A stretch of DNA of 64,000 bases from Microbacterium sp. 10M-3C3 (GTDB lineage Bacteria > Actinomycetota > Actinomycetes > Actinomycetales > Microbacteriaceae). Numbering within the stretch: position 1 is the first letter of the stretch; each line of letters opens with the position of its first letter. Under the pieces are notes generated by a model. It did no database searches. It was not told the origin of the DNA and worked only from the letters and a program-made list of their open reading frames with translations. The stretch covers positions 1,364,001 to 1,428,000 of the forward strand of contig NZ_CP034245.1 of assembly GCF_003931875.1 (NCBI RefSeq), in the 5' to 3' direction. A program made the position numbers and the translations under genes. Shown here piece by piece: positions 33,757-56,345 of the stretch.

Positions 33757-33780
33757 GCATCGGGATCGGAGGTGATCGGA

Positions 33781-36759: not shown

Positions 36760-36785
36760 ACCGCCCGCATCAGAAGGAGCACACC

Positions 36786-37064: not shown

Positions 37065-37094
37065 CCGGCCAGATAACTCGGTCGGAGATAGAGG

Positions 37095-37355
37095 GTGGAC
37101 ACGGCGGTCGGGCTGGTGCAGGCATACCTGCGGGTCAACGGCTACTTCACCGTCGCCGAATACCCGGTGCTGGACGCCACCGGGCCCGGCGGGCCGCGCA
37201 CCATCACCGACCTGGACATCCTCGCCGTACGGCTGCAACGCGCACCGGGAGCGTCCGGGGTCGTCGACGCACCGCTGGACCCCGCCCCGGCCAGGACCAC
37301 CGGGGTGCCGACGGTGGTGTTCGAGGCGGGATCGGCGGCGACCCGCTCCACCTGA
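37095..37355 (+). pseudogene. Truncated hypothetical protein, 5' fragment
   Basis: 86 residues starting VDTAVGLVQAYLRVNGYF, TVAEYPVLDA and ITDLDILAVRLQRA, with a plausible ribosome site (GGAGATAGAGG). The start looks like a conserved actinobacterial protein of unknown function; the rest is missing and the next gene fragment starts within four bases, indicating a deletion fusion. Confidence 0.5.
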
Positions 37356-37358
37356 ACG

Positions 37359-38082: not shown

Positions 38083-38110
38083 CCCCGGGTCCTCTGGCGG
38101 GCATGCCTGG

Positions 38111-38618
38111 TCAGGCCACGGCAGGGGTGCGTCGCCGCCGGGCGATCACGCCGGTGAGGGCGAGACCACCCAGCCCACCCCACAGGGTGACAGTGGAGAC
38201 ACCTTGCCCGATGAGGACGGCGGGGGTGAGCCCGGCGCGCAGGTCAGTGTCGGCGATCATCGCCCCGGCTTGCCCGGCGGGCAGACCTTTGAGGGTGCTG
38301 CCGTCGGGGCGGATGATCTGGCTGGTGCCGACGGTGGAGATGTTCACCACGGTGCGGCCGGTCTCCACCGCGCGGATCCGGGCGACCGCGAGCTGCTGCA
38401 GGTTCTCGTCCGTGCCGCGGAAGTCGGCGTTGTTGGTCTGGAACACCAGCAGCTCCGCACCGGCGGTGACGCTCTCGGCGATGACTTCGTCGTAGATCAC
38501 GTCGAAGCAGATCGCCAACCCCACCGGCACGTCGCCGACGGTGATCAGCGGCACGTCCGTGCCGTGCGCGTAGTCGCGTTGTAGCAGCCCGACCAGGTCG
38601 GGGGCGAGCAGGGTGTAG
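38111..38618 (-). pseudogene. Apolipoprotein N-acyltransferase (Lnt), C-terminal remnant
   Basis: Encodes the end of the nitrilase-like domain: LAICFDVIYDEVIAES with the catalytic-type Cys, FQTNNADFRGTDENLQQLA, and a final transmembrane helix. The membrane N-terminal half is missing; the frame joins another gene fragment near 38618. An Lnt gene fits the neighbouring lgt functionally. An intact copy elsewhere would be needed for this step. Confidence 0.7.
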
Positions 38619-38972
38619 CGTCGGCGGGGGCGGCCGCCGCGGTCGCGACCGCCGCGGCGACCGCGAGGGCGAACCCGGGCGTGCGGAACACGGCGGTCAC
38701 GGAGCGTGTCGCGGCCAGCCGCCGCCACCCCCAGCCGCGATCACGACCCCGACGGTGGGGATCGACGCATACAGCAGCAGGTGGGGAGGGATGAAGGTGC
38801 TGTCCCGGCCGAGGGTGGTGTGCCAGGAGTCGTCCCAGTACGCCGACCCGACCCCGGCGGCTGCGGCGGCGGCGGCGACCCAGACGCCCCCGGCCCCCAG
38901 CGCCGGGGAGCCGCGGGCCGGGTCCGGCTCGGACGGGATGGGGGCGCGGTCACGGCTGCCGTGTGGTCGCAT
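38619..38972 (-). pseudogene. Integral membrane protein, frameshifted and 3'-truncated
   Basis: Starts MRPHGSRDRAPIPS and has two hydrophobic segments, with SAYWDDSWHTTLGRDS between. After VGVVIAAG the frame shifts near 38725: the other frame continues WRRLAATRSVTAVFRTPG and FALAVAAAVATAAAAP and is then cut at the Lnt remnant. Named function unknown. Confidence 0.5.
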
Positions 38973-39061
38973 GATCTGTCCTTTCTGCGATGCGGCAGGG
39001 AGCCGGTCCGCCCCTGCCAGGCGGCTAACGCCATGGCGTCGCTCCCGGCGGCAGCGGGGTG

Positions 39062-39790
39062 TTAGAGGGGGAGCACGGTGGCTCCGATGAGGTTCTGGAT
39101 GCTGGAGATGAGAAGTGTCCAAGCTCCGCTGATCATCGCGATGCCGGTGGCGATCATGAGGACCCCGCCGGTGATGTTGATGGTGCGGATGTGGCGGCGC
39201 AGGAACGTGATGCTTCCGGTGGCCCAGTTCAGGCCGGCCGCGGCGGCGATGAAGGGCAACCCCAGGCCCAGGCAGTAGGTGACGGCGAGGAGGGCGCCGC
39301 GGGCGGGGTTGCCGGTGGTGAGGCTGAGCGCGGAGATCGCGGCGAGGGTCGGGCCCAGGCACGGGGTCCAGCCGAGCCCGAACGCGATGCCGAGCAGGGG
39401 AGCTCCGGCCAGCCCGCTGGGCGGGTGGATGGCGGGTTTCGCGGTGCGTTGGAGAAGCCGGAACACGCCGAGGAACACAAGCCCCATCAGCAGGACCATG
39501 ATCCCGAGGACGCGGGTGAGGAGATCTTGCCAGCGGATGAGCCAGCCACCCAGGGCGCCGAACGCGGCCCCGTAGCCGATGAACAGGACGGAGAAGCCGA
39601 GGGTGAACAGCCCGGTCCCGGCCACCGCCCGCCACCGGGAGACCCCCGCGGTGGTGGTGGTGCCGGTGAGGTAGCCGAGGTAGCCGGGCACGAGGGGAAG
39701 CACGCAGGGGGAGGCGAAGGACACCAGCCCGGCGAGGAGGGCGAGGGGGAGGGCGGCCCAGATGCTGCCGGCGGTGATGATCTCCCCCAT
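39062..39790 (-). CDS. ccdA: CcdA-type transmembrane thiol-disulfide transporter
   Basis: 242 residues, six transmembrane helices, with the redox pair in SFASPCVLPLVPGYLG (C29) and GWTPCLGPTLAAIS. Passes electrons from cytosolic thioredoxin to extracytoplasmic acceptors such as the TlpA-like lipoprotein encoded just upstream (TGATG overlap). Confidence 0.9.
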   Translation of the reverse strand: MGEIITAGSIWAALPLALLAGLVSFASPCVLPLVPGYLGYLTGTTTTAGVSRWRAVAGTGLFTLGFSVLFIGYGAAFGALGGWLIRWQDLLTRVLGIMVLLMGLVFLGVFRLLQRTAKPAIHPPSGLAGAPLLGIAFGLGWTPCLGPTLAAISALSLTTGNPARGALLAVTYCLGLGLPFIAAAAGLNWATGSITFLRRHIRTINITGGVLMIATGIAMISGAWTLLISSIQNLIGATVLPL

Positions 39791-40410
39791 CAGGGGCTCG
39801 TCTCGGCGAGGACGGTGTCGATGAGGGCGGCGAGGGTGGTGCGGGTAGGCAGCTGCCCGATGATACGGGCGGCCATCCGGCCGGTGCGGTCCAGGACGAT
39901 GGTGGTAGGCACGGCGCCGGGGGCGGCTTTCCCGGCGAACGCGGCTTGCACCGTGCCGGTGGTGGCGTCCAGGATCGACGGGTAGGTGATGCCGAACTGG
40001 TTCTCGAACGCGGCGGCGGTGTCGGCGCTGTCGCGCACGTTGACGCCGATGAACACGACACCGTCGGGCTGGTAGGTCTGGGCGAGGGCTTCCAGGTCCG
40101 GCGCTTCGGCACGGCAGGGCGGGCAGGCGGCGTACCAGAAGTTCACCACAACGACCGAACCCGCCCACGCGGTGGAATCCGCCTGGACCCCGGTGCCGGT
40201 GGTGCCGGTGAAGGTGACCGGGTCGTCGCGCTGATCGGCGGGGATCTCCCGCACGGTCTCGTCCGCGGACAGATACCCCGGAGACGGGGAGGAAGACAAC
40301 AGGCCAGGCGTCTGGGCGGTGCACCCGACCAGAAGCAGGGCGAACACGGCGACCGCGGCGGCGGTGACCGTGCGGCGGGGTGGGCGTGTCAGGGCGGTGG
40401 GGGTGCGCAT
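39790..40410 (-). CDS. TlpA/ResA-like thioredoxin-fold lipoprotein
   Basis: 206 residues: lipoprotein signal with lipobox LLLVGC (C30), then a thioredoxin fold with FWYAACPPCRAEAP (C96, C99) and VPTTIVLDRTGR. Extracytoplasmic reductant for apocytochrome or other cysteines; the likely acceptor from CcdA. Its lipidation would need Lgt, encoded in the same operon. Confidence 0.9.
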   Translation of the reverse strand: MRTPTALTRPPRRTVTAAAVAVFALLLVGCTAQTPGLLSSSPSPGYLSADETVREIPADQRDDPVTFTGTTGTGVQADSTAWAGSVVVVNFWYAACPPCRAEAPDLEALAQTYQPDGVVFIGVNVRDSADTAAAFENQFGITYPSILDATTGTVQAAFAGKAAPGAVPTTIVLDRTGRMAARIIGQLPTRTTLAALIDTVLAETSP

Positions 40411-40431
40411 GCGGGGATCACTCCGGTCGGG

Positions 40432-40707
40432 TCAGGTGTTCGTGCTCTTGCGGGTGGGGCGGCGACGGCCGGCGAGGATCGCGCCGGTGATCAGCAGCAG
40501 CGCCCCGGTCGGGTACCCGGCGACCAGGTCGAGCCAGCCGGGGGGCTGGCCGGGGCCGAACACTTCCAGGTGCGCGAGCCAGTGGATGATCGCGACGATC
40601 GCGCCGGCGGCCATCAGGGCCTGGCCGACCCGGACGAGCAGGCGGTGTCGCCGCCAGGCACGTTGCGGGTCCTCGGCCGGGGCGGGGCGGGGGGTGGTGC
40701 GGGTCAT
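40432..40707 (-). CDS. Small two-helix membrane protein
   Basis: 91 residues with two hydrophobic segments (about 25-46 and 66-84: YPTGALLLITGAILAG) and basic ends. Sits between ccsB and the TlpA gene, so perhaps an accessory of cytochrome c biogenesis. No family recognised. Confidence 0.65.
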   Translation of the reverse strand: MTRTTPRPAPAEDPQRAWRRHRLLVRVGQALMAAGAIVAIIHWLAHLEVFGPGQPPGWLDLVAGYPTGALLLITGAILAGRRRPTRKSTNT

Positions 40708-40733
40708 GAGCGGGTCCTTTCGCAGGGGGCGGG

Positions 40734-41729
40734 TCACAGTCCGGAGTAGGAGTGCAGGCCGGTGAAGAAGACGTTGACGACGCCGAAGTTGAACAGCACG
40801 GCGGCGAAGCCGACGATGCACAGCCAGGCGGCGCGGGTGCCGGCCCAGCCACGGGTGGCGGTGGCGTGCAGGTATCCGGCGTAGAGCACCCAGATGATGA
40901 ACGTCCACACCTCTTTCACGTCCCACCCCCAGAACCTGCCCCAGGCGCGGCCGGCCCAGATCGCCCCGGCGATCAGGGTGAAGGTCCACAGGATGAACCC
41001 GACGATCGTCAGCCGGTATGCGATCCGGTCCAGATCCTCCGGCCCGGGCAGACTGTCACGCAGCCGGGTGAGCCGGGAGGGGAGGCTGCGGCGGCGGGTG
41101 GTGAGCAGGTAGGTGAGGGAGACGAGGAACGCGAGCCCGAAGAACGCGGTCGCCAGCAGCGCGACCAGCACGTGGATGACCAGCCACCCGGATTGCAGGG
41201 CGGGCATCAGGGGGACGACGGGGACGTAGAAGCTGACCGTCGCGACGCCGAGCAGCAGCACGGTCAGCCCGAGCACGGCGCTGCCCAGGTACGCCAACCG
41301 CACCCGCAGCGACACGGCCAGGAAGGTGGCGATGATCAGGGCGGTGCCGGTGAGGGAGAACTCGAACATGTTCGCCCACGGCACCCGGTCCGCGGCGACC
41401 CCGCGCAGCACCACCCCGGCAAGATGGAACACCCAGCCCAGCACGGTCAACGCGAACCCGACCCGCGCCGCCTTCCCCGCCCCCCGGCCGCCCCCCGGGG
41501 CAGGGGCGGCGGGTGCGGTGTCGGGGGCGGGGGCGGTGGGTGTGCCTGCCAGGTCCGGGTCGGTGGTGCTGGTGGCGCCGGCGGTGACCGGCACCCGGGC
41601 GGTGACCGGGACGGCAGGGGTGCTCGCGCGGCGGGCGAGGTGAAGGGTGTAGGCGACGAACGCGGCGGCGTAGATCGCGATCGCCGAGTACACCAGCAGC
41701 AGGGACAGGGCGTCAAGGAACGGGGTCAT
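40734..41729 (-). CDS. ccsB: Cytochrome c biogenesis protein CcsB/CcsA (ResC)
   Basis: 331 residues, polytopic. The tryptophan-rich heme-handling motif is seen in WGRFWGWDVKEVWTFIIW; histidines in LAGVVLRG-proximal helices and HATATRGW are further heme-ligand candidates. Works with ResB to move heme and ligate it to apocytochrome c (System II). Overlaps resB by 17 bases. Confidence 0.92.
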   Translation of the reverse strand: MTPFLDALSLLLVYSAIAIYAAAFVAYTLHLARRASTPAVPVTARVPVTAGATSTTDPDLAGTPTAPAPDTAPAAPAPGGGRGAGKAARVGFALTVLGWVFHLAGVVLRGVAADRVPWANMFEFSLTGTALIIATFLAVSLRVRLAYLGSAVLGLTVLLLGVATVSFYVPVVPLMPALQSGWLVIHVLVALLATAFFGLAFLVSLTYLLTTRRRSLPSRLTRLRDSLPGPEDLDRIAYRLTIVGFILWTFTLIAGAIWAGRAWGRFWGWDVKEVWTFIIWVLYAGYLHATATRGWAGTRAAWLCIVGFAAVLFNFGVVNVFFTGLHSYSGL

Positions 41730-43359
41730 CAGAGCCTCCTCGAGGGGGTGTGGGGGTCGGGGTGAGGCGGGTGGCGAGGGTGTCGACGGTGGGTTGCAGG
41801 CGGGGGTCGTCGCCGCGGGCGAGCCCGGCGACCTCGAGCACCGTGCCGCCGTCCGGGCCGGTGCTTGTGCGGACCCAGAGGCGGCGGCGGGGCACGAACA
41901 GGGACAGGGCCAGCCCGGTCATCGCGGCGACCGCGGCGATCAGGGTGGGGGTTTGGGTGGGGTCGGCGGCGATCTCCAGCGACGCGAACCGGGGGATCGG
42001 GCCGAGCTCGATCGTGCCCAGCCCGTCCGGCAGTGGAACCGGGGTGCCGGGGACCAGCTGCAGGGCGGGGGTGGGGGTGCCGCGCCCGGCGATCTGGGTG
42101 AGGGTGCTGGTGTCCAGCGCGTACACCGACACCGGGACCCCGGTGTTCAGGCCCAGGTCGCCGACGTACACGTTGAAGGTGACGACCGGGTCCAGCAGGT
42201 CTGGGTAGCTGGACGCGAACGCCCCGGTGGGGGTAGTGGCGCGGGTGGGGTACAGCATCCCGACCAGGCCGACCTGCTCGGCCAGCCCGTCGGGAACCTT
42301 CACGATGCCCAGGCTGGTCATCTTCGCGTCCTGCGGCAGGAACGGGACCGTGTCACTGAACACGATCTTCCCAGCCGGGTTTCGGACGGTGAGGGTGGGG
42401 GCGTACCCGTTGCCGAGCAGGTAGATGTCGGTGCCGGCCACCGGCAGCGGCTCGTTGACCCGGATGCTGGAGGCCTGCCGGGTGCCGCCTGTGGTGGTGG
42501 TGACCTGCGCGTCGAAGCTCTTCGGCATGCCGAGCGCGTTGACGTTGTCCAGGACGTAGTCGACGCGGAACCGGTCCAGGGTGAGGGAGAACGTCGGGAT
42601 CTGCGTGTCGGTGATGAACCGGCCGGCGGTGAACGAGTCGTACGCGATCCGGGTGGACGCGAATGTCTGTCCCTCGACCAGCACCCGCTGCCCGGTGAAC
42701 CGGAACCCGCCGCCGACGCCGACCACGACCAGCACCGCCAGCAGCGCCACGTGGAACAGCAGGTTCCCGGTCTCCCGCAGGTAGCCGCGTTCGGCCGCGA
42801 CTGAGTCCCGTCCGTCGTCGCCGCGGATCCGGCGGGTGCGGTACTGCTGCCGGCGCAGCGCCTTTTCGGCCGCGTCCAGGACCGCACCGGGGGGCGTGTC
42901 GGGGAGGACGCGGCGGGTGTGGGCGGGCAGGTGGGACAGGTTGCGGGGGGTGGCCGGGGGCGGGGCGAGCAGCGCGGTCAGGTGGTGGCGGATGCGGGGG
43001 ATGACGCAGCCGATCAGCGACGCGAACAGCAGCAGGTAGATCGCGGAGAACCACACCGACCCGAACACGTCGTGCAGCTGCAGCAGGTCCACCGCCCACA
43101 TCCAGCCCGGGTTGGTCTTGTCGAACTGGATCACCCCGTTCGGGTCGGAGGAGCGTTGCGGGATCAATGACCCGGGGATCGCGGCCACCGCGAGCAGCAG
43201 CAACAACACCACGGCGGTACGCATGCTGGTCAGCTGCCGCCACGCCCATCGCGCCCACCCCGAAACGCTCAGGCGCGGATTCGTAGGCTCGTCCACCGGC
43301 CGGTCGACGTGATCGGCGGGCAGCTGCGGGGCCTGCTCACTGCGGATCGACACGCGCAT
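41713..43359 (-). CDS. resB: Cytochrome c biogenesis protein ResB
   Basis: 548 residues: three N-terminal transmembrane helices (MRTAVVLLLLLAVAAIPGSL; FSAIYLLLFASLIGCVI; LLFHVALLAVLVVVGVGGG), a large extracytoplasmic domain and a last helix (LIAAVAAMTGLALSLFV). Partner of CcsB. It overlaps both lgt (23 bases) and ccsB, showing a tight operon. Confidence 0.92.
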   Translation of the reverse strand: MRVSIRSEQAPQLPADHVDRPVDEPTNPRLSVSGWARWAWRQLTSMRTAVVLLLLLAVAAIPGSLIPQRSSDPNGVIQFDKTNPGWMWAVDLLQLHDVFGSVWFSAIYLLLFASLIGCVIPRIRHHLTALLAPPPATPRNLSHLPAHTRRVLPDTPPGAVLDAAEKALRRQQYRTRRIRGDDGRDSVAAERGYLRETGNLLFHVALLAVLVVVGVGGGFRFTGQRVLVEGQTFASTRIAYDSFTAGRFITDTQIPTFSLTLDRFRVDYVLDNVNALGMPKSFDAQVTTTTGGTRQASSIRVNEPLPVAGTDIYLLGNGYAPTLTVRNPAGKIVFSDTVPFLPQDAKMTSLGIVKVPDGLAEQVGLVGMLYPTRATTPTGAFASSYPDLLDPVVTFNVYVGDLGLNTGVPVSVYALDTSTLTQIAGRGTPTPALQLVPGTPVPLPDGLGTIELGPIPRFASLEIAADPTQTPTLIAAVAAMTGLALSLFVPRRRLWVRTSTGPDGGTVLEVAGLARGDDPRLQPTVDTLATRLTPTPTPPRGGSDDPVP

Positions 43360-44221
43360 CCCCCCTCTCCCGGACGGGTGCGCGGCGGCGGGCGCGCCAG
43401 GAGGCGTGGGCGAGCAGCCCGACCCCCAGGGCGGCGGCCACCAGGGCGGTGAGCACGTTCGCTTTGAGCCCGCCGGCGAGCAGCTCGGTGGGATCCAGCC
43501 GGATGGACTCCAGCACCGCCCGCCCCGCCCCGTACCACAGCAGGTACATGCCCAGACTCCGCCCGGTGCCCAACGTGATCCGGCCGTGCCTGCGGCGGTG
43601 CTGCTCGAGCAGCACGATCACGGCGGCCCCGGCCAGGTTCCACAGCAGCTCGTACAGGAACAGCGGATGAAACAGGGTCCCCGCCGGGGTCCCCGGCGGG
43701 ATCGCGGGAGCGGAGGGGTCGATCTGCAATCCCCACGGCAAGGTGGTGGGTGGGCCGAACAGTTCCTGGTTGAAGTAGTTCCCCAGCCGCCCCACCGCTT
43801 GGGCGACCAGCATCCCCGGGGCGAGCGCGTCCAGGAACAGCAGCATCGGGATCCCGGCGCGACGGGTGCCGATCACGATGCCGACCAGCCCGCCCAGGAT
43901 CGCACCGAAGATCGCGATCCCGCCCTCCCAGATGTAGAGCACCCGCCACAGGTCCGCGCCAGGGAAGAAGTAGTCGCCCGGATGGGTGAGCACATGGTAG
44001 ATCCGGGCGCCGAGGATCCCGAACGGCACCGCCCACATCGCCACATCCACCACGACCCCGGCCGGGTGCCCGACCGCCCGCAACCGACGGCCGGTGATCA
44101 GCACCGCCAGCACGATCCCGGCCAGGATCGCCAGCGCGTAGAACCGGATCTGGAACGGCCCGACCTGCACGAAGCTGATCCCCGGGCTCGGGATCAGCGC
44201 TGGAACCACGATGGTGCGCAT
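43337..44221 (-). CDS. lgt: Prolipoprotein diacylglyceryl transferase
   Basis: 294 residues with the Lgt signature AVGRLGNYFNQELFG, GARIYHVL, and seven hydrophobic segments. It lipidates the lipobox cysteine of exported lipoproteins; several are encoded in the island (TlpA-like, DUF305, beta-propeller). A chromosomal lgt is expected elsewhere, so this is probably an extra, island-dedicated copy. Confidence 0.93.
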   Translation of the reverse strand: MRTIVVPALIPSPGISFVQVGPFQIRFYALAILAGIVLAVLITGRRLRAVGHPAGVVVDVAMWAVPFGILGARIYHVLTHPGDYFFPGADLWRVLYIWEGGIAIFGAILGGLVGIVIGTRRAGIPMLLFLDALAPGMLVAQAVGRLGNYFNQELFGPPTTLPWGLQIDPSAPAIPPGTPAGTLFHPLFLYELLWNLAGAAVIVLLEQHRRRHGRITLGTGRSLGMYLLWYGAGRAVLESIRLDPTELLAGGLKANVLTALVAAALGVGLLAHASWRARRRAPVRERGDARVDPQ

Positions 44222-45012
44222 CAGGTTCTCCTGTTCGCGGGGATCCACACCAGCGGATCGACCGGTTCCCCGCCGACGCGCACCTCGAAATGCAGGTGCG
44301 CGCCGGTGCTGCGTCCACTGTTCCCGACCCGGCCGACCAGTTGCCCCACCCGCACGGTCTGCCCCGGGGTGAGCGCGAGGGACCCTTCCCGCATGTGCGC
44401 GTAGACGCTCTCCACGACCTGTCCGTCGATCTCGTGCCGGATCACCACATACACCCCGTACGCGCCGCCCTGCTCCGGCGCAGTGGTGACCACCCCGTCG
44501 GCCATTGCCTGGATCGGGGTGCCGATGCCCGGGGTCATATCCAGGCCGGCATGATCGCTGGAACACGACGGGCACGGCCGGGTGCGGTACCCGAACATGC
44601 TGCTGATCGGCACCCCCACCGTGAACGGCCACTGCACCGCCGACGCCGGGTCGTTGGTGAACGTGTCCGCGGTGTGCGCGTACGACTCGGTCCCGGCAGG
44701 GGCGGTCACCGCCACCGTGTAGTCCCCGCGAGCGATCACCGTCCCAGTGACGGTGTCGGGGGTGGTGAACGTCTGGGCGCGTACCGGGGTGCGGGGCGGC
44801 TCGGCGGCGAATGCCGGCTCCGGCGCCAACGGGATCAGCAACGGCAGTGCGGCGATGGAAGCGACCGTGAGCATCACGGTGCCGGCGAGCATCCGACGGT
44901 GGGCGAGCCTGCTGCGAGGCGTGTGTCGAGGTGTCCGCGCGGCACGGGTGGGCCGCCGGCGTCGATCGCGTCGCGTCGGGACGGGCGGGGAAGAGAGGGC
45001 GGGTTCGGGCAT
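44221..45012 (-). CDS. M23-family metallopeptidase, exported
   Basis: 263 residues: a basic N-terminus, signal/anchor helix (about 42-68) and a LytM-type domain with zinc ligands in SSDHAGLDM and GAHLHFEV. The motif PCPSCSSDH has two cysteines close to the active site. Probably a peptidoglycan hydrolase or an inactive-scaffold relative. Its stop overlaps the lgt start; the 246 bases upstream hold no gene that I see. Confidence 0.87.
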   Translation of the reverse strand: MPEPALSSPPVPTRRDRRRRPTRAARTPRHTPRSRLAHRRMLAGTVMLTVASIAALPLLIPLAPEPAFAAEPPRTPVRAQTFTTPDTVTGTVIARGDYTVAVTAPAGTESYAHTADTFTNDPASAVQWPFTVGVPISSMFGYRTRPCPSCSSDHAGLDMTPGIGTPIQAMADGVVTTAPEQGGAYGVYVVIRHEIDGQVVESVYAHMREGSLALTPGQTVRVGQLVGRVGNSGRSTGAHLHFEVRVGGEPVDPLVWIPANRRT

Positions 45013-45258
45013 ACAAGTCTTTCCTGAGGGAGGGGACGATGAAGGTGCGCACGGTCACCACCGCCGTCACACGGTCCAACCGGGCGCCGCGGCCGAGAGT
45101 GTGCCGCTTCCGCGGCGAGAATCTCGGATCGGGTCACACACGGTGCTGCCGCAGGCGCGGCGCGCTTACCTACGGGGCGCACATCGTGGCCGTCGGCGAC
45201 ATCACGCACACGGCCACACCAGCGGTGGCTCAGACGGCGGGCGCGGGCGGAGTGTTGA

Positions 45259-45690
45259 TCAGGTGCGGCTGATCGACAAAACGATCAGGGAGGGCCGCAG
45301 AAGAGGCGACCCGGACGTGAACGAGGCCGACCTGCCGGGGAGGGATCGCAGCCACGCCAGCAGCGACATCCACCCGTCCCGGGTCGGTAGCACCAGGATG
45401 AGCAGGGTCAGCAACGCGAGCAGACACGTCACGGCAGCTACAGCATGAGATGTCCCGCAGACCGTCTCCTCGCACGAGGGCGTCGCCACCCCGCTGACCA
45501 GGACGTCAGCGGCGGCATCGGGGGCCGCAACGACTGCGGCGGCGGACACGACAGTGCCCGCCTGGTCGTCTTCCAGACTCAGCGAGTGCATTGCGAGCAG
45601 CCCCGCGATGATCGCGGTCACCGCGGCCAGGTAGAACCAGAGGGCACGCCGGGACCCGAGTGCCCGCCGTTGCGCCACCACCTGGTTCAC
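45259..45690 (-). CDS. DUF6153-type small membrane protein, leftward copy
   Basis: 143 residues: TM1 (about 18-35, FYLAAVTAIIAGLLAMHSL), an extracytoplasmic loop with a cysteine pair (SCEETVC), TM2 (VTCLLALLTLLILVL) and the terminal heptapeptide VLSISRT. I chose GTG at 45690: AGGAAGGGG precedes it, and a TATGAT -10 at 45719-45724 overlaps the ATG codons further up. This matches the GTG-AAC start of the divergent paralogue. Confidence 0.75.
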   Translation of the reverse strand: MNQVVAQRRALGSRRALWFYLAAVTAIIAGLLAMHSLSLEDDQAGTVVSAAAVVAAPDAAADVLVSGVATPSCEETVCGTSHAVAAVTCLLALLTLLILVLPTRDGWMSLLAWLRSLPGRSASFTSGSPLLRPSLIVLSISRT

Positions 45691-45721
45691 CGTCGACGCC
45701 CCTTCCTCGATGACGCCCATC

Positions 45722-45738
45722 ATACCCCGGGCGGGTAG
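45722..45738 (-). promoter_or_regulatory. CsoR-type operator for the leftward unit
   Basis: ATACCC-CGGGC-GGGTAG, near-palindromic, overlapping the minus-strand -10 TATGAT. Similar to the csoR operator. Should control DUF6153 and, if read through, the peptidase-lgt-resB-ccsB-tlpA-ccdA series. Confidence 0.7.
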
Positions 45739-45765
45739 CCATCCCCGAAGCGATCCCCATCCTGG

Positions 45766-45782
45766 ATACCCCGGATGGGTAT
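45766..45782 (+). promoter_or_regulatory. CsoR-type operator for the rightward unit
   Basis: ATACCC-CGGAT-GGGTAT palindrome; the right arm forms the plus-strand -10 (TATAAG). It lies about 90 bases before the rightward DUF6153 start and 44 bases from the leftward box. Confidence 0.8.
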
Positions 45783-45873
45783 AAGCTGGGTGGAAGGACG
45801 TGCTCCCGGTGCGTGGTTCTGACCGTGTTGCGGGGGCAGGGCGCCGCTAGCCTGGACGGGAAGGAGGTCGGTC

Positions 45874-46344
45874 GTGAACGTGATTCGCTTGCACACGCGT
45901 CTGACCCCCGGGGTGCGCCGACTTCTGCTGGCCGCTCCGATCGCCCTGGCGATCATCACCGGGCTGCTGTCCATGCACGTCCTGACCGGTTCCCACCAGC
46001 CCGCCCTGGCATCAGAGACCAGCGCGATGAGCACGCACAGCCAGGTCGGCTCCGCGCCAGCCGCCGCCGACGATACGCCGATGACCGCAGCTGCGGCGGA
46101 GGGCGCTGGGGGGCATTGCCAGGACGGGTGCGGCAGCCCTGCGGGGATGCCGGATCACTCGATGCTGATGATGGTGTGTGTGCTGGCGCTGCTGGCCGCG
46201 GTGATCGTCCTGCTCGCCCCGACGTTCCGTGCCCTTCTCACATACGCCGTCGCCCGCTCGCGCTCCCATACCCGGACGCTGCTGGCCGGATTGCCGCATC
46301 CCCGCCCGCCTTCACTGCTTGTCCTGTCCATCAGTCGCACCTGA
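45874..46344 (+). CDS. DUF6153-type small membrane protein, rightward copy
   Basis: 156 residues: TM1 (LLLAAPIALAIITGLLSMHV), a His/Met-containing loop with HCQDGCGSPAGMPDHSMLMM, TM2 and the same final VLSISRT as the leftward paralogue. GTG start with AAGGAGG six bases upstream. The Cys/His/Met loop suggests extracytoplasmic copper binding; this is inferred. First gene of the rightward unit. Confidence 0.75.
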   Translation: MNVIRLHTRLTPGVRRLLLAAPIALAIITGLLSMHVLTGSHQPALASETSAMSTHSQVGSAPAAADDTPMTAAAAEGAGGHCQDGCGSPAGMPDHSMLMMVCVLALLAAVIVLLAPTFRALLTYAVARSRSHTRTLLAGLPHPRPPSLLVLSISRT

Positions 46345-46355
46345 TTCCGCCTGAA

Positions 46356-46379
46356 CCCCGGCGACCCTCGCCGCCGGGG
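46356..46379 (+). terminator. Weak hairpin after the rightward DUF6153 gene
   Basis: Eight-pair stem CCCCGGCG/CGCCGGGG with an eight-base loop 12 bases after the stop. No U tract, so more likely an attenuator or mRNA-stabilising structure. Confidence 0.4.
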
Positions 46380-46448
46380 ATGCTGCACTCTGCCCTCCCG
46401 GGCACCGAATCAGACCCTCACCGACTGAATAGATAAGGACAACCCCTG

Positions 46449-47063
46449 ATGCGTTTTCGTACTCTCACGCTGACCGCCGGCGCCCTGGCCACCGTGGTTG
46501 TGCTCGCCGGCTGCGCCCCGACCGACGGCACCATGCCCGGCATGGACCACGGGCCTGGGGGGATGACCAGCACCGCCCCGTCCCAGTCCGCCGCGGCGTT
46601 CAACGCCGCGGACGAGATGTTCGTGACGATGATGATCCCGCACCACCAGCAGGCCATCGCGATGGCCGATCAGATCCTCGCGAAAGACGGCATCGACGAG
46701 CGGGTCGTCTCCCTCGCCGAGCAGATCAAGGCCGCACAGGACCCGGAGATCCAGACCATGAAGGGCTGGCTGGAGGAGTGGGGCGTCCCGTACGACGACT
46801 CCATGTCCGGTATGGACGGCATGGACATGGGCGACGGGATGATGTCGGAGGACGACATGGCCGCTCTGGATGCCGCGACCGGGGTCGAGGCGACCCGACT
46901 GTTCCTGAACGGCATGATCGCTCACCACCAGGGCGCCGTGACGATGGCGCAGTCGGTGCTCACCGACGGGCAGAACACGGACGTGGCCGCCCTCGCGCAG
47001 CAGATCATCGACGGGCAAACCGCCGAGATCACCACGATGCAGGACATCCTCGCCAGCCTCTGA
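46449..47063 (+). CDS. DUF305 copper-binding-type lipoprotein
   Basis: 204 residues: lipobox VVLAGC, a Met/Gly/His-rich segment, then the ferritin-like DUF305 bundle with two MMIPHHQQAIAMA / MIAHHQGAVTMA repeats. A second Met-rich stretch (MSGMDGMDMGDGMM) lies between. Common in copper and heavy-metal clusters; probably binds copper outside the membrane. Confidence 0.9.
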   Translation: MRFRTLTLTAGALATVVVLAGCAPTDGTMPGMDHGPGGMTSTAPSQSAAAFNAADEMFVTMMIPHHQQAIAMADQILAKDGIDERVVSLAEQIKAAQDPEIQTMKGWLEEWGVPYDDSMSGMDGMDMGDGMMSEDDMAALDAATGVEATRLFLNGMIAHHQGAVTMAQSVLTDGQNTDVAALAQQIIDGQTAEITTMQDILASL

Positions 47064-47072
47064 CCCGGTACC

Positions 47073-47115
47073 CCTCGGACGGGACCCGCGCTCCCGATGC
47101 CGGTCCCGTCCGAGG
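47073..47115 (+). terminator. Strong hairpin between DUF305 and the beta-propeller gene
   Basis: Perfect 14-pair stem CCTCGGACGGGACC and its complement with a 15-base loop, nine bases after the stop. No U run follows, so partial termination or processing may set the DUF305 to downstream gene ratio. Confidence 0.55.
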
Positions 47116-47180
47116 CCCCACCCTCGACCCCTGTGCGGTCACCGGTATCCGGCGTACCCGCACGGAAAGGCCCTCCGCCC

Positions 47181-48041
47181 ATGATTCCCCCTGCCACCCG
47201 AAGAGTCGCGATCACGGCCACCGTCACCGTCGCGCTGCTGCTCACGGGCTGCAGCACCACCCCTGCGGAGCCCGATGCCCCCGCGAGCACCGCGGCCGGG
47301 CTCGGGCATGTGCACGGCATCGTCGACGCCGGTGACGGCACCGTGCTGCTCGGCACCCACACCGGCCTGTACACGCTGGGCGAGGACGGCACCGTCACCG
47401 GCCCGGTCGGTGGCATCGACCTGGACGCGATGGGACTGACCGCCACCGGTGACACCCTCTACGCGTCCGGGCACCCCGGCCCGTCCACCCCGGCGGAGCT
47501 CGGCGCCCCCAACCTCGGCATCATCCGCAGCCTCGACGCCGGCGCCTCGTGGGAACCGGTCGCGTTCACCGGGGAAGAAGACTTCCACGTCCTCACCGTC
47601 ACCGGCGACGGCACCCTGTACGGGATCGGATCCTCCCGCCCGCTGCTGCGCACCAGCGGTGACGGCGGGCAGACTTGGGCGGACGGTGCCCAGCTGCCCG
47701 CCGTCGACCTGGCCGCCGCGACCGACGGCACCCTGTACGCCGCCACCCAGGACGGGCTGCAGCACAGCACCGATGGTGGCGCCACCTTCACCCCGGCCCC
47801 GGACGCGCCGGTGCTGTACATGGTGGAGACCGACCCAACCGGTGGGGTGGTCGGAGTGGACACCGACGGGACGTTGCGGCGCCTAGTCGGCACCGGCTGG
47901 GAGAACGTCGGCACCACCACGGGAACCGTCCAAGCCCTCGGGGTCACGACGGACGGTGCAATCGTCCTGGTCGATGACCGTGGCGTGGTCTGGATCCGCG
48001 ACACCACCGCCACCGTCCTCATCCCGGCGGCAACACCATAA
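47181..48041 (+). CDS. Beta-propeller lipoprotein (F510_1955/sortilin-like)
   Basis: 286 residues: lipobox LLLTGC, then repeated blades with BNR/sortilin-type boxes ([33 protein letters not shown]). GHVHGI near the N-terminus is typical of this family, which accompanies DUF305 and copper genes in Actinobacteria. Exact role unknown. ATG at 47181 is chosen because the signal peptide starts there. Confidence 0.8.
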
Positions 48042-48099
48042 CCACCGTCATTCGCACCTGGCGCGACCCGAGCGGCCGCGGATCGGAAGGAGACCGACC

Positions 48100-50553
48100 A
48101 TGACCCCCACACCAGCAGCCCCGGCGTGGGCGCACCGCACCACCGATGCCACCGCCGAGCAGTTGGCGGAGGTGGATGCGTGGTGGCGGGCGGCGAACTA
48201 TCTGAGCATCGGGCAGATCTACCTGCAAGGTAACCCGCTGCTGCGCCACCGCCTCAGCCGGGAGGACATCAAGCCGCGGCTGCTCGGCCATTGGGGCACC
48301 ACCCCGGGCCTGAACTTCCTCTACGCCCACCTGAACCGCGCCATCCGCGACCGCGACCTGAACACCCTGTACGTGACCGGGCCCGGGCACGGCGGACCGG
48401 GCATGGTCGCCAACGCCTACCTGGACGGCACCTACACCGAACGCTACCCGGGCATCGACCGCACCGAAGAGGGGCTGCGGGCGCTGTTCCGCCAGTTCTC
48501 CTTCCCGGGCGGGATCCCCTCGCACGCCTCCCCGGAAACGCCGGGGTCGATCAACGAGGGCGGCGAGCTGGGCTACTCCCTCGTGCACGCCTACGGGGCG
48601 GCGTTCGACAACCCCGACCTGCTGGTCGCCTGCGTGATCGGCGACGGTGAGGCCGAGACCGGGCCGTTGGCGACCGCGTGGCACGGCAACAAGTTCCTCA
48701 ACCCCGCCGCCGATGGGGTGGTGCTGCCGATCCTGCATCTGAACGGGTACAAGATCGCCAACCCGACCGTGCTGTCCCGCATCCCCGAGGAGGAGCTGGT
48801 CGCGCTGCTGCGCGGCTACGGCCACGACCCCCACGTCGTCACGGTCGGCTTCGACGACGAGACCCCGGCCGAGTCCCACGCGACGTTCGCGGCGGTGCTG
48901 GATACGGTGCTGGATGAGATCGCGGAAATCAAGGCCGCCGCGGCGGCCGGGACGTTGGAGGGGCGGCCGGCGTGGCCGGCGATCGTGCTGCGCAGCCCGA
49001 AGGGGTGGACCTGCCCGAAGATCATCGACGGTCTGCCGGTGGAGGGCACCTGGCGGGCCCACCAGGTGCCGCTCCCCGAGGTCCGCGACAATCCCGAGCA
49101 CCTGCGGATCCTCGAGGACTGGCTGGCGTCCTACCGTCCGCACGGGCTGTTCGACGTGATCGGCGCCCCACGCCCGACCACGGTCGCGATCGCCCCGGAT
49201 GGGGATCGGCGGATGAGCGCGAACCCGGCCGGCAACGGCGGACAACTCACGATCCCGCTGCGGCTCCCGGACTTCCGCGAGCACGCCCACCACGTCGACC
49301 CCGCCGCGCGCGGGGCGTTGACCGGCGAAGCGACCCGGACTTTGGGGGATTGGCTGGCGGGGGTGATCCGGGACAACCCGGACAACTTCCGCATCTTCGG
49401 CCCGGACGAGACCGCCTCCAACCGGCTCGCCCCACCCGTCTACTCGGTTACCGGCAAGCAGTGGAACGCGGCCGTGGAGCCCGTCGACGAGCACCTGGCC
49501 CCGACCGGGCGGGTGATGGAGGTGCTCAGCGAGCACCAGTGCCAGGGCTGGCTCGAGGGCTACGTCCTGACCGGCCGGCACGGCCTGTTCAACTGCTACG
49601 AGGCATTCACCCACATCGTCGACTCCATGTTCAACCAGCACGCCAAATGGCTCGAAGCGGCCCGGGAGGTGGCCTGGCGGGACCCGATCCCGAGCTTCAA
49701 CTACCTGCTCTCCAGCCACGTCTGGCGGCAGGACCACAACGGGTTCTCCCACCAGGACCCCGGGTTCATCGACCTCGCCCTGAACAAGAGCCCCGACATC
49801 GTCCGCGTCTACCTCCCGTTCGACGCGAACACGCTGCTGTCCACCTACGACCACTGCCTGCGCTCCACCGGGTACATCAACGTCGTCGTCGCCGGGAAGC
49901 AGCCCGCCCCGCAGTGGCTCACGATGGACGAGGCGATCGAGCACTGCACCCGCGGGCTGGGCATCCTGCCGTGGGCGGGCACCGAAACCGAAGGCACCGA
50001 GCCGGATGTGGTGCTCGCCGCCGCCGGCGACGTCCCCACCCTCGAAACCCTCGCCGCTGCGGCGCTGCTGCGCGAGCACATCCCCGACCTGAAGGTGCGG
50101 GTGGTGAACGTGGTCGACCTGACCCGGCTGCAATCCGAGGACCAGCACCCGCACGGTCTCCCGGACCGGGAGTTCGATGCGATCTTCACCCCCGACAAGC
50201 CGGTGATCTTCGCCTACCACGGCTACCCGTGGCTGATCCACCGTCTCACCTACAAGCGCGCCGGGCACCAGAACCTGCATGTGCACGGCTTCCAGGAGCG
50301 GGGCACCACCACGACCCCGTTCGACATGGTCATGCTCAACGACCTGGACCGGTACCGGCTCGCGATCGACGTCCTCGACCACGTTCCGGGCCTCGCCGCC
50401 CGCCGCGCGGAGCTGCGGCAGGAACTGCAGGACGCGCGCCTGCATGCCCGCGCCCACACCCGTGAGCACGGCACCGACATTCCAGCCGTCGCCGACTGGC
50501 ACTGGCCCCACCCCGACACCACCGACCCCGCCATCGGGAAGGAACCGAAATGA
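48100..50553 (+). CDS. xfp: Phosphoketolase (xylulose-5-P/fructose-6-P)
   Basis: 817 residues, normal length. ThDP enzyme cleaving xylulose 5-P or fructose 6-P with phosphate to acetyl phosphate plus glyceraldehyde 3-P or erythrose 4-P. Signatures: [27 protein letters not shown] and [21 protein letters not shown] follows GGAAGGAGA. Its stop overlaps the copper ATPase start (ATGA), so it is co-translated with copper efflux genes, an unusual setting. Confidence 0.95.
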
Positions 50554-53057
50554 GTGACACCAGAACCGTGACCTTGCAGGTGGGCGGCATGATCCGCGCG
50601 ACCTCTAAGAACGTCACCGAAGCCCACCTGGGCCGCCAGCCCGGGGTGATCGCCGTCGACGCGAACCCGGTCTCGCAGACCGCGACCGTCACCTACGACC
50701 CCGAGACCACCTCGGTCGCGCACCTGCAGCAATGGGTCATCGACTGCGGTTACCACTGCGCCGGCCAGTCCGTCCCCGACCACATCTGCGACCCCGCGCA
50801 CGACCCGCAGGCCCACCCTGCCCAGGCCGGACCCGACGAGCACGCCGACCACGGTGCGCACGCCGGAGACGCTGCGCACGCAGGGCACGATGCGCACGCC
50901 GATGCCGACCAATCCGAGGCGCATCAGCACCACGACGGGGCCGCCGTCGCCGGCGGGCACGATCACGGTGGGAGTGCGGTGGCGGGCCATAGCGCGCAGG
51001 ACATGATGGGTCACGGCGGGCATCACGGCGGCATGTCGATGGCGTCGATGATCCGCGACATGCGCAACCGGTTCCTGGTCGCGTTGATCTTGTCGATCCC
51101 GATCACCTTGTGGTCTCCGATCGGGCGGGAGGTGATCGGATTCGAGGTGCCGGCCCCGTTCGGGCTGCGGGACGACGTGTTCATGCTGATCCTGTCGCTG
51201 CCGGTGATCTTCTACTCGGCGTGGATCTTCTTCGACGGCGCCTACCGAGCGCTGCGGGCGAAGACCCTGGACATGATGGTGCTCGTCGCGGTCGGAGTCG
51301 GTGCCGGCTGGCTCTACAGCCTGATCATCACCCTGACCGGCGGCGGCGAGGTGTTCTACGAGGCCGCGACCGTGCTGGCCACCTTCGTGCTCCTGGGCCA
51401 TTGGGTGGAGATGCGGGCCCGCGGCGGGGCGAACGACGCGATCCGCCGACTGCTGGAGCTCGCGCCGGCCCGCGCCGTCGTGCTCCGCGACGGCAATGAG
51501 GTCGAGATCCCCACCTCCGACGTCGTCCCGGGCGATCTGATGCTGATCCGCCCCGGCGCGAAAGTCCCCACCGACGGCACCGTCGAGGAGGGCGAATCCG
51601 AGGTCGACGAGTCGATGGTCACCGGCGAATCCATGCCGGTAGACAAGGCCCCCGGCGCCGAGGTGATCGGCGCGACCGTGAACACCGTCGGCACCCTGCG
51701 GGTGCGGGCCACGAAGGTCGGCGCCGACACCGCGCTGGCGCAGATCGTGAAGCTCGTGCAGGAGGCGCAGAACTCCAAAGCCCCCGGCCAGCGCCTCGCC
51801 GACCGGGCCGCGTTCTGGCTGGTCCTGGTGGCCCTGATCGGTGGCACCCTCACCTTCCTGGTGTGGTTCCTCGCCGGGGCTGAACTGCCGATGGCGATCC
51901 TGTTCGCCATCACCGTCGTCGTCATCACCTGCCCCGACGCGCTCGGCCTCGCCACCCCGACGGCGATCATGGTCGGCACCGGGCTCGGTGCCAAGCGCGG
52001 GGTGCTGTTCAAGAACGCCTCCGGGATCGAGACCTCCGCCCACATCGACACGGTGGTGCTGGACAAGACCGGCACTCTTACCAAGGGGGAACCGGAGGTC
52101 ACCGATTACCTCCCGGTCGGGATGGACGACCTCGAGCTGCTCTCCCTCGCCGCCGCACTCGAGCGGGAGTCCGAGCATCCGCTGGCCAAAGCGATCGTGC
52201 AGTACGCCGACCGCCGGGACATCCCCCGCCGCACCGCGACCGCCTTCCGCAACGTGACCGGCCAAGGCGCGACCGCCACCGTCGACGGCAAGCAGGTCGT
52301 GCTCGGCAACGCCCGCCTGATGGCCGCCGAAGGCATCGACATCTCCCCGGTCGCCGCGCAGCAGCAGGCCCTCGCCGACGGCGGACGCACCGCGATCATG
52401 TTCGCCGTCGACGGGCAGATCGCCGGCGTCATCGCCCTGGCCGACGCGCCGCGCGACACCGCCAAAGCCGCCATCGACGCCCTCCACGAACAGGGCATCG
52501 AGGTGGCCATGCTCACCGGCGACAACAAACCCACCGCCGACCGCATCGCCGCACTGCTGGGCATCGACACCGTGATCGCCGACGTGCTCCCCGAAGACAA
52601 ATCCGCCAAGATCGCCGAGCTGCAGAAAACGGGCAAGAAGGTTGCGATGGTCGGCGACGGCGTCAACGACGCCCCCGCGCTGGCCCAAGCCGACCTCGGC
52701 ATCGCGATCGGCGCCGGCACCGACGTCGCGATCGAGACCGCCGACGTCGTCCTGATGCGCTCCGACCCGCTGGACGTGGCCATCGCGCTCAAGATCGGCA
52801 AGGGCACGCTGCGGAAGATGCGGCAGAACCTCGGCTGGGCCGTCGGCTACAACGCGATCGCCCTCCCGATCGCCGCCGGCGTGTTCTACCCCGCGTTCGG
52901 GATCATGCTCACCCCCGAGATCGCGGCGATCAGCATGTCCGGCTCCTCCGTCATCGTCGCCGTCAACGCCCTCCTCCTCAAGCGACTGCGGCTCCCGGCA
53001 CAACCCAGCGCAAGCGCCGCGCCAACCGCTGTGCTCGCGAACGAGGTGCAGCCGTGA
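50550..53057 (+). CDS. P1B-type copper ATPase, CopB-like, with CPD motif
   Basis: 835 residues: a degenerate N-terminal HMA fold ([10 protein letters not shown], no CxxC), a His/Asp/Met-rich segment of about 100 residues (from [14 protein letters not shown] to GHHGGMSM), eight transmembrane helices, TGES, CPD at 461-463 in place of CPC or CPH, DKTGT at 505-509, SEHPLA and GDGVND. His-rich N-terminus is CopB-like. Substrate probably copper, from the context; the CPD motif leaves some doubt. Confidence 0.9.
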
Positions 53058-54574
53058 GCACGAGTCGTCCTGTGCTCAGCGCGTCCCTCACCCGCCGCGG
53101 CTTCCTCGGCGTCAGCGTCGGCGCGCTCGCCACTGTCGCCCTAGCGTCCTGCGCGCCGGCAGCGACTTGGGTGCAACCGGACGGCACCGCGGTGAAGGAT
53201 GCGGAGCGGCGACGTGGCGGCACCGGCAAGGTCACCACCGCGACCCTTGCCGCCGCCCCGCTCGTGCTGGACCTGGCCGGCAAGACAGCGGCCACCTGGG
53301 CGTTCGGCTCCACCCCGGCGCCCGTCATCCGCCTCGGCGCCGGAGACACCCTCCAGGCCACCGTCCGCAACCAGCTCGACACCGACACCTCCGTGCACTG
53401 GCACGGGATCGCGCTGCGCAACGACATGGACGGGGTGCCCCCCATCACGCAGAAGCCCATCGGCGCCGGCGCAGCCTTCGACTACGAGTTCATCGTCCCC
53501 GACCCTGGCACCTACTGGTTCCACCCCCACGTCGGCGTGCAACTGGACCGCGGCCTCTACGGCGCCCTGATCGTCGAGGACCCGGACGAACCGCTGGCCT
53601 ACGACGACGAATGGGTGATCATTCTCGACGACTGGCTCGACGGCGTCACCGCCAACCCCGACCAGGTACTCGAAGAACTCTCCGCCGGGATGGGCGACAT
53701 GGGCGGGATGGACGACATGTTCATGCGGATGGGCAACACGCTCATGGGCGCCACCTCCGACCTGCTCGGCGGCGATGCCGGCGATGTCTACTACCCCCTC
53801 TACCTCATCAACGGGAAGCCGGTCGACGACCCCACCCAGTTCACCGGCAAGCCCGGCAATCGAGTCCGATTGAGGATCATCAACGCCGGCAGCGACACCG
53901 CGTTCCGTCTCGCAGTCGGCGGCCACGGGTTGACCATCACCCACAGCGACGGGTTCCCCGTGACCCCGGTGGAGGTCGACAGCATCCTGATCGGGATGGG
54001 CGAACGCTACGACGCGACCATCACCCTGGGCGACGGGGCGTTCCCGCTCATCGCTCAAGCCGAGGGAAAGCGAGCTCGCGGATTCGCGGTCATCCGCACC
54101 GGCGCCGCGGCCGCAGCCCCGGCGGCCGACGTGAGCATCCCAGAGCTGACCAGCAGCCGAGTCGGGACCGCGCAGTTGCTGGCCGCCGACAGCCGTGCGG
54201 CGCTGTCCTCCCGGCAGCCCGACAGGTCCATCGCGATCGCCCTCACCGGAGGGATGGCCGACTACGACTGGGGCATCGACGGGCGCCGGTTCGACATGAC
54301 CCAGCCCCTGAACGCAGCGCACGAGATCCGGGAAGGCGAACGCGTTCGGCTCACCATCACCAACGACACCGAGATGTGGCACCCGTTTCACCTGCACGGG
54401 CACACATACCAGCACCAGGGCGACGGCCCGCGGAAGGACACCTCAATCATCCTGCCGAAACAGACCCTCACCGTCGACTTCGACGCCGACAACCCCGGCC
54501 TCTGGATCGCGCACTGCCACAACGTCTACCACGCCGAAACCGGCATGACCACTGTCATCGGCTATCGGGCGTGA
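53054..54574 (+). CDS. Exported multicopper oxidase, CueO/CopA-type
   Basis: 506 residues: Tat signal TRRGFLGVSVGALATVALASC, whose final Cys suggests lipidation. Copper ligands are complete: HWHG, WFHPHVG, HPFHLHGH and HCHNVYHAETGM with the type-1 axial Met. A Met-rich stretch (MGDMGGMDDMFMRMGNTLMG, about residues 215-235) resembles the cuprous-oxidase lid. Oxidises Cu(I) outside the membrane. Start overlaps the ATPase stop (GTGA). Confidence 0.93.
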   Translation: MSTSRPVLSASLTRRGFLGVSVGALATVALASCAPAATWVQPDGTAVKDAERRRGGTGKVTTATLAAAPLVLDLAGKTAATWAFGSTPAPVIRLGAGDTLQATVRNQLDTDTSVHWHGIALRNDMDGVPPITQKPIGAGAAFDYEFIVPDPGTYWFHPHVGVQLDRGLYGALIVEDPDEPLAYDDEWVIILDDWLDGVTANPDQVLEELSAGMGDMGGMDDMFMRMGNTLMGATSDLLGGDAGDVYYPLYLINGKPVDDPTQFTGKPGNRVRLRIINAGSDTAFRLAVGGHGLTITHSDGFPVTPVEVDSILIGMGERYDATITLGDGAFPLIAQAEGKRARGFAVIRTGAAAAAPAADVSIPELTSSRVGTAQLLAADSRAALSSRQPDRSIAIALTGGMADYDWGIDGRRFDMTQPLNAAHEIREGERVRLTITNDTEMWHPFHLHGHTYQHQGDGPRKDTSIILPKQTLTVDFDADNPGLWIAHCHNVYHAETGMTTVIGYRA

Positions 54575-54692
54575 CCACGGCGCAACCTTCCAGGGGCCAC
54601 CCAGCTGGCCGCATCAATCAACGCGTGACGACGCCAGTGATCCGACGGGATGCGGCCGCACCCCTGCGGGATCTTGACGGCACCGGCGGCGG

Positions 54693-56301: not shown

Positions 56302-56312
56302 GCCGATCACCT

Positions 56313-56345
56313 CCACTGACTAGGTGCGTCAGATGCACCAAGTGG
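56313..56345. repeat. Imperfect palindrome at the right island edge (candidate att site)
   Basis: Outer arms CCACT/AGTGG and inner arms GGTGC/GCACC around GTCAGAT, between the small resolvase-like ORF and the first recognisable ABC-F codon. Large serine recombinase sites are imperfect palindromes of 30-50 bp with this kind of placement. Confidence 0.5.

Follow-up and report, generated by a model that had tools for sequence, protein, structure and literature searches.

A probable mobile copper-resistance island in Microbacterium sp. 10M-3C3 with candidate CsoR operators before genes for efflux, lipoprotein and cytochrome c assembly, and a phosphoketolase

Organization of the island and its CsoR boxes

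The window analyzed here is a 64,000-nucleotide stretch of the genome of Microbacterium sp. 10M-3C3 (positions 1364001-1428000 of a 3,387,846-base single contig), and it contains an insert of about 25.8 kb that carries a set of copper genes and splits the gene of an ABC-F ATPase. The two parts of that gene lie at 29435-30545 and 56345-56824; alignment to same-genus sequences ends on the left flank at ~30523-30551 and resumes on the right at ~56344-56352, about 80 bases of the target remain unaligned at the insertion, and the gene is unsplit at seven same-genus loci. The locus is probably a mobile copper-resistance island of modular build. We note that a transposase gene, IS256-like by eye, occurs in two identical copies, at 24871-26139 and 31574-32842, the second of them within the left end of the element.

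The island genes, assigned to families by Pfam and NCBIfam profiles, form three groups (Table 1), each preceded by a perfect copy of the palindrome TACCC-N5-GGGTA. The first is csoR-copZ-copA; the other two diverge from a pair of boxes 44 bases apart, with DUF6153, an M23 peptidase, lgt, resB, ccsB, a small membrane protein, tlpA and ccdA on the left, and DUF6153, DUF305, a propeller lipoprotein, a phosphoketolase gene (xfp), a second P1B-type ATPase and a multicopper oxidase on the right. An earlier, sequence-only reading of this DNA had described both units, and profile searches bear out its gene order. The box pair that it reported is real, starting at 45723 and 45767 and not one base earlier at 45722 and 45766, and the third box that it placed before csoR-copZ-copA is found at 33740. 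The left end of the locus (38111-38728) is not an intact lnt; only residues 333-475 of the 511-position Lnt reading align.

A chance origin of the pair at 45.7 kb is ruled out by shuffling, by comparison with other half-sites and by the genome count. The window has three perfect boxes, and three or more occur in none of 300 dinucleotide shuffles; of the 1024 half-sites at the same spacing, only TACCC has neighboring copies in the window at a distance of 15-100 bases, its palindrome not being the commonest there (10 half-sites are more frequent); and the genome holds seven perfect boxes against one copy of a reversed control pattern. All seven adjoin copper-type genes or a remnant of one, and three precede csoR genes. 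Outside the window, one box each precedes csoR (2.688 Mb), csoR-copZ-copA (2.971 Mb) and a P-type ATPase gene (0.319 Mb). The fourth, at 2368022 (L132:2023), has a copA-like remnant on one side and on the other an MFS gene starting ~50 bases downstream, and is perhaps a captured operator.

The island CsoR holds, by eye, a Cys and a His-x3-Cys (YC...DHLGHC), which make up the Cu(I)-binding Cys/His/Cys set known from CsoR of Mycobacterium tuberculosis. In Streptomyces lividans a TAC-N9-GTA operator within a pseudopalindrome precedes csoR and copZA, and the window boxes fit this operator with G/C tracts, but the three sites described in the excerpts of that paper belong solely to csoR and two copZA operons (PMC3902906; all of the literature is cited here from partial text). 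We consider control of both 45.7-kb units by CsoR to be a strong prediction from these sequences.

The left DUF6153 gene is better started at GTG 45690 than at ATG 45723, as by eye the latter overlaps the box and the candidate -10 hexamer. The leftward unit had been described as tightly packed, and from M23 through ccdA this holds, with gaps of -1 (M23-lgt), -23 (lgt-resB), -17 (resB-ccsB), 26 (ccsB-small membrane protein), 21 (small membrane protein-tlpA) and -1 (tlpA-ccdA) bases; it does not hold for DUF6153, which lies 246 bases from M23. The rightward gaps, from DUF6153 through the oxidase, are 104, 117, 58, -4 and -4 bases. RNA folding of the 246-base gap gave no marked structure (z 0.25), and a crude terminator scan found no terminator-like site in it or in the 58- to 117-base rightward gaps.

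Table 1. Features of the island, in window coordinates
Feature	Coordinates	Strand	Basis
Inserted element, ~25.8 kb	30545..56345	.	flank alignment to same-genus genes
Recombinase-like piece, left end of element	30752-31318		by eye
CsoR box of csoR-copZ-copA; TATAGC 33753-33758 overlaps box end	33740..33754	+	pattern scan
csoR	33772..34065	+	PF02583, 105 bits
copZ-like chaperone	34115..34471	+	read from sequence; kept in syntenic loci
copA, P1B ATPase with CPC	34468..36759	+	sequence motif
Small His-rich YHS-like protein (name by eye)	36786..37064	+	kept in syntenic loci
lnt remnant	38111..38620	-	residues 333-475 of 511 align
ccdA	39062..39790	-	DsbD-type profile matches below cut-off; syntenic loci
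tlpA/resA-like lipoprotein, CPPC, lipobox LVGC	39790..40410	-	profile and motif
Small membrane protein, conserved in these operons	40432..40707	-	
ccsB, Cytochrom_C_asm, WGRFWGWDVKEVW	40734..41729	-	profile and motif
resB	41713..43359	-	PF05140, 430 bits
Second lgt, GRLGNYFNQELFG	43337..44221	-	profile and motif
M23 peptidase	44221..45012	-	profile
DUF6153, left	45259..45690	-	profile
CsoR box, left unit; TATGAT 45724-45719	45723..45737	-	pattern scan
CsoR box, right unit; TATAAG 45780-45785	45767..45781	+	pattern scan
DUF6153, right	45874..46344	+	profile
DUF305 lipoprotein, LAGC	46449..47063	+	profile and lipobox
F510_1955-type propeller lipoprotein, LTGC	47181..48041	+	profile and lipobox
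Phosphoketolase (xfp)	48100..50553	+	XFP_N, XFP and XFP_C domains all present
P1B ATPase, CPD instead of CPC, N-terminal HMA without CxxC, His-rich	50550..53057	+	profile and motif
Multicopper oxidase, LASC, HCHNVYHAETGM	53054..54574	+	profile and motif
Large serine recombinase, right end of element	54693..56090	-	Pfam/NCBIfam profile search

The left unit and the conservation of both units

The genome encodes two Lgt and four ResB proteins. The identity of the island's Lgt is given by TIGR00544 (148 bits, cut-off 118.9), a match to PF01790, and the presence of GRxGN, the signature of Lgt. The System II cytochrome c assembly set is complete in the left unit, with ResB, a CcsB with a WWD-type motif, CcdA and TlpA. 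Four island proteins (TlpA, DUF305, the propeller protein and the multicopper oxidase) have lipoboxes, and the island therefore carries lipoproteins together with a lipidating enzyme. Two more TlpA-CcdA-ResB-Lnt-M23-CcsB sets lie elsewhere in the genome, at 1.878-1.893 Mb (L146) and 2.9755-2.992 Mb (L145); they are apparently one duplicated stretch in opposite orientation, and the L145 set has a full-length Lnt.

The expectation that the same gene order would recur elsewhere is borne out in two genomes from other genera of the family (G060, loci L129 and L158; G041, loci L130 and L159), which keep both units, each behind a perfect box. In L129 and L130 one box is followed by csoR-copZ-copA-YHS-DUF6153-DUF305-propeller-phosphoketolase-ATPase-oxidase, and the other, in the opposite direction, by DUF6153-M23-lgt-resB-ccsB-small membrane protein-tlpA-ccdA. 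The box of the lgt unit sits in a divergent gap between an acetate kinase gene and DUF6153, so that genes for maturation and for carbon metabolism are opposed there as well. Among the matches listed, the phosphoketolase has its closest named relatives in a Microbacterium record (L049) and a Cryobacterium record (L050) that are near-identical in this region; both carry the right unit following csoR...YHS, their boxes have one mismatch, and the lgt unit is absent from the 22 kb covered. At five other loci (L135, L137, L152, L153 and L199) an lgt/resB operon without an adjoining DUF6153 (by tblastn) has a perfect box no more than 8.5 kb from lgt.

Among 150 genomes of the family searched for Lgt (E <= 1e-30), 18 have at least two matches. 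By a rule written after part of the data had been seen, we counted as a copper marker a perfect box, csoR, copA, copZ, DUF305, a multicopper oxidase or a CPD-type ATPase within 8.5 kb of lgt, and find a marker beside 12 of 23 Lgt loci read in these genomes that are not linked to trpA and beside none of 27 that are trp-linked (Fisher p 1.1e-5). The window is one of the 12, and four of the others (L136, L204, L206 and L211) have a single marker each. The 27 controls comprise 13 loci from multi-Lgt genomes, 12 from hand-picked single-Lgt genomes, the organism's own housekeeping copy (L148), and L150, which came from a search of 299 genomes; loci from that search that were left out of the count include four that are copper-linked (L137, L149, L151 and L154) and two that are neither copper- nor trp-linked (L156 and L157), and the survey omits some further copies in G041, G066, G036 and G042.

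Similar links between copper and these genes are in print. In Listeria and Enterococcus a second lgt (lgt2), carried with lit2 by a mobile element, shares a transcript with copper-resistance genes and is induced by copper (PMC8275575, in part), whereas the island's lgt has M23, ResB-CcsB, TlpA-CcdA and an lnt remnant as its partners; no lit gene was called in the island, where no Lit profile was run. Under copper stress in Corynebacterium glutamicum tlpA is raised 236-fold and ccsA/ccsB ~3.6-fold, according to the available part of PMC3140484. The same text describes a divergent copper locus, the CopRS divergon cg3281-cg3289, with a CopB ATPase, a secreted multicopper oxidase and TlpA, as in the island; it differs in having two-component control, in that the excerpts name no lgt or phosphoketolase there, and in that the cytochrome genes, although themselves raised by copper, lie outside it.

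Phosphoketolase, type II GAPDH and the second ATPase

The phosphoketolase of the island is the only copy in the genome. The ATPase encoded next to it does not have the hallmarks of Cu(I) P1B-1 ATPases, which are a membrane CPC motif and an HMA-domain CxxC; it has CPD (at ~51925) and no HMA CxxC. CPD was read in the window and in close relatives of this ATPase at 16 further loci, and a CPD scan of the loci L166 and L186-L188, which encode a type II (archaeal-type) glyceraldehyde-3-phosphate dehydrogenase (GAPDH), found no match. CPD relatives are also seen on plasmids of Mycolicibacterium, Rhodococcus, Streptomyces, Methylocystis and Sulfitobacter.

Further carbon genes join the phosphoketolase in relatives. 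In L049 a beta-phosphoglucomutase/GH65 fusion and a type II GAPDH (18447-19505; NF003251, 432 bits, cut-off 185) stand between the ATPase and the oxidase, with acetate kinase upstream; ackA is present at L049, L050, L129 and L130, and the type II GAPDH and GH65 fusion at L049 and L050. Among 396 genomes of the organism's own order, nine have a type II GAPDH match (E <= 1e-40), and all nine neighborhoods (among L166 and L181-L189) have a copper marker. Seven of them combine a perfect CsoR box with pump genes or csoR; in the other two, on short contigs of 5.7 and 11.3 kb, the only marker is DUF305 or copZ.

Among 72,556 plasmid records 37 have a type II GAPDH match, and 22 of these fall among the best 60 of 4548 records for the island's second ATPase. 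Where that ATPase is encoded at 60% identity or more, a phosphoketolase lies within 5 kb in at least 14 of 41 plasmid records, as judged from the best 60 of 4548 ATPase records and the best 60 of 208 phosphoketolase records, and some of the 14 look clonal. One region of plasmid pCETAM of Corynebacterium comes resembles the island in combining CcdA, TlpA, a multicopper oxidase, a copper ATPase, DUF305 and a phosphoketolase; it differs in having a response regulator/kinase pair instead of csoR and in adding a type II GAPDH, a fructose-bisphosphate aldolase and the GH65 fusion, and no lgt or resB is annotated in the 17.6-kb stretch. On the plasmids of Acidovorax p1-T1 (L167) and Sulfitobacter dubius (L193) type II GAPDH accompanies acetate kinase and Prs, or genes of the arginine deiminase pathway, regions which look like an energy-stress module.

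A tree was built from 90 phosphoketolases, 11 of them labeled copper-linked by a rule fixed before any tree (L162 and L163 through a CPD-type ATPase alone, and L049 and L050 being near-identical); L167 had a very long branch in a first version and was dropped. The 11 fall in three places, with three label changes: the group of the window beside non-copper Microbacteriaceae enzymes, a group of six, most of them encoded on plasmids, and a single enzyme from a Mycolicibacterium plasmid. A single copper-linked clade is rejected by 190 log units (p 3e-112, approximately unbiased test) under a simpler model on a hand-picked 35-row subset with all 11 copper rows and 24 of the 79 others, in which the starred branches force only two label changes. 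The three changes may equal one gain and two losses.

A copper response beyond efflux, and its alternatives

The sequence-only reading proposed that the combination forms a copper response much broader than efflux, and this is supported by its recurrence in two genomes and by the published copper induction of lgt2/lit2 and of tlpA/ccsA/ccsB. Copper has further reported targets: Cu(I) binds and inhibits GapA of Staphylococcus aureus (PMC6350627, in part) and copper inhibits Prs (PMC10249872, in part), while the Ccm pathway of cytochrome c maturation, which is System I and not System II, is termed a major target of excess periplasmic copper in the available text of PMC8456105. Considering these effects together with those on tlpA/ccs and lgt2, we read the island as detoxification plus replacement. 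Specifically, we favor, with a probability of roughly 60%, an island derepressed through CsoR that would combine detoxification with replacement of copper-sensitive surface assembly and a route around the copper-sensitive GAPDH.

Under this scheme apo-CsoR would sit on the TAC-N9-GTA boxes, overlapping the -10 elements, until Cu(I) frees it and the three promoters fire. The csoR-copZ-copA unit would export cytosolic copper, and the right unit would handle copper outside the membrane through the DUF305 and propeller lipoproteins, the CPD-type ATPase and the lipoprotein oxidase. Phosphoketolase makes acetyl-phosphate without GAPDH, and we advance the hypothesis that here, by cleaving xylulose-5-phosphate or fructose-6-phosphate, it would bypass that enzyme or give ATP when respiration fails. 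The left unit would add a second enzyme for lipidating prolipoproteins, which would act on the lipoproteins of the island itself, and another System II assembly set, ResB-CcsB provided with thiols by TlpA-CcdA, in place of surface machinery that copper oxidizes or blocks. We infer CsoR binding, co-transcription and the purposes of xfp, lgt and resB-ccsB from the sequence, and transcription would presumably reach M23...ccdA past the 246-base gap.

Several observations weigh against this reading. Each box of the 45.7-kb pair had been described as overlapping a -10 element, and by eye the final TA of all three window boxes is indeed the first TA of a TATnnn hexamer on the transcribed side; sigma-70 consensus scans, on the other hand, found no promoter over threshold at the 45.7-kb boxes, so that promoters there are putative and the overlap is plausible. 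The 246-base gap could house a separate promoter. No CsoR box was found in the stretches read at the L145 and L146 assembly sets, which exist in addition to the ResB/CcsB/TlpA/CcdA set at 2.83 Mb, a copper marker is missing at 11 of the 23 extra Lgt loci, and the Ccm evidence concerns a different machine from ResB-CcsB. As to carbon metabolism, the genome has no type II GAPDH at E <= 1e-40 and a single acetate kinase gene, outside the island with no perfect box nearby, so that the bypass here would be xfp alone; and over-expression of gapA brought S. aureus no gain in copper tolerance (PMC6350627, in part). Phosphoketolases in general are not copper-linked, a marker being absent at 78 of 80 loci (the exceptions are the near-identical L049 and L050). 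Only one of the nine own-order type II GAPDH stretches has xfp (L181) and four have a GH65 gene (L181, L183, L185 and L187), from which type II GAPDH and xfp look like alternatives or loosely joined parts and not a fixed set. Finally, three type II GAPDH sets in Proteobacteria have no annotated csoR, copA, multicopper oxidase or DUF305 in the stretch, two of them having a CPD-type ATPase.

These last carbon modules favor, for part of the data, the main alternative, that phosphoketolase, acetate kinase, the GH65 fusion and type II GAPDH form an energy-stress module making ATP at substrate level under low oxygen or blocked respiration. Its link to copper would then arise because copper blocks respiration, or through shared plasmid cargo, and not from poisoning of GAPDH. 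The Acidovorax and Sulfitobacter plasmid sets, with no csoR or copA in view, agree with this, as do xfp or type II GAPDH copies near universal or general stress proteins in Rhodococcus and Mycolicibacterium; the perfect CsoR box at seven of nine own-order type II GAPDH loci does not, and it can be argued that oxygen shortage alone poorly explains a second GAPDH. We regard this alternative as a serious one, somewhat short of an even chance.

It is unlikely, in our view, that CsoR governs only the genes adjoining the boxes (the two DUF6153 genes and perhaps DUF305 and the propeller gene), with M23...ccdA and xfp-ATPase-oxidase under copper-independent promoters. The gaps before M23 and in the right unit leave room for this and the promoter and terminator scans do not decide, but no terminator-like site was seen in those gaps, and the five lgt/resB operons without DUF6153 still have a box within 8.5 kb. 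Rather doubtful is a role of the left unit in copper-protein maturation, with TlpA as a Sco-like chaperone for the CuA site of an oxidase, and not in cytochrome c assembly; a CtaG-like gene in the 2.98 Mb set (L145:5162-5971) would suit it, at 25.8 bits far under the cut-off, but the unit contains ResB and a WWD-type CcsB, the heme-handling core of System II. That the combination is shuffled mobile-element cargo without joint function is improbable, for while the recombinase-bearing insertion, the unit order differing from L129/L130, the lack of an lgt unit near L049/L050 and the unmarked extra Lgt loci would fit, a box precedes each unit in both arrangements, copper-linked phosphoketolases occupy three places in the tree, and the copper linkage of lgt is 12 of 23 against 0 of 27.

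Returning to detoxification plus replacement, we tentatively extend it, at slightly under even odds, to actinobacterial copper islands generally: these may be CsoR-controlled target-replacement kits, holding spare or bypass versions of parts that copper destroys. Besides exporting copper, they would encode a phosphoketolase (accompanied in some by acetate kinase) or a type II GAPDH against poisoned glycolysis, and for the surface an additional Lgt and another cytochrome c assembly line; a P1B ATPase of the CPD type would often accompany the metabolic genes. Against antibiotics, a spare target is a familiar means of resistance. Among the literature matches listed we find none describing it for copper, and none tying phosphoketolase or type II GAPDH to copper-resistance islands; copper-linked lgt and tlpA/ccs responses are already in print. 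If the proposal is true, copper resistance extends beyond efflux and oxidation to the replacement of damaged targets, and the cargo of such islands would offer a natural test of which copper targets count in vivo, listing the GAPDH step, cytochrome c assembly and lipoprotein lipidation. It would also provide a likely context for the type II GAPDHs of this order, for the copper-linked phosphoketolases and for the CPD-type P1B ATPases.

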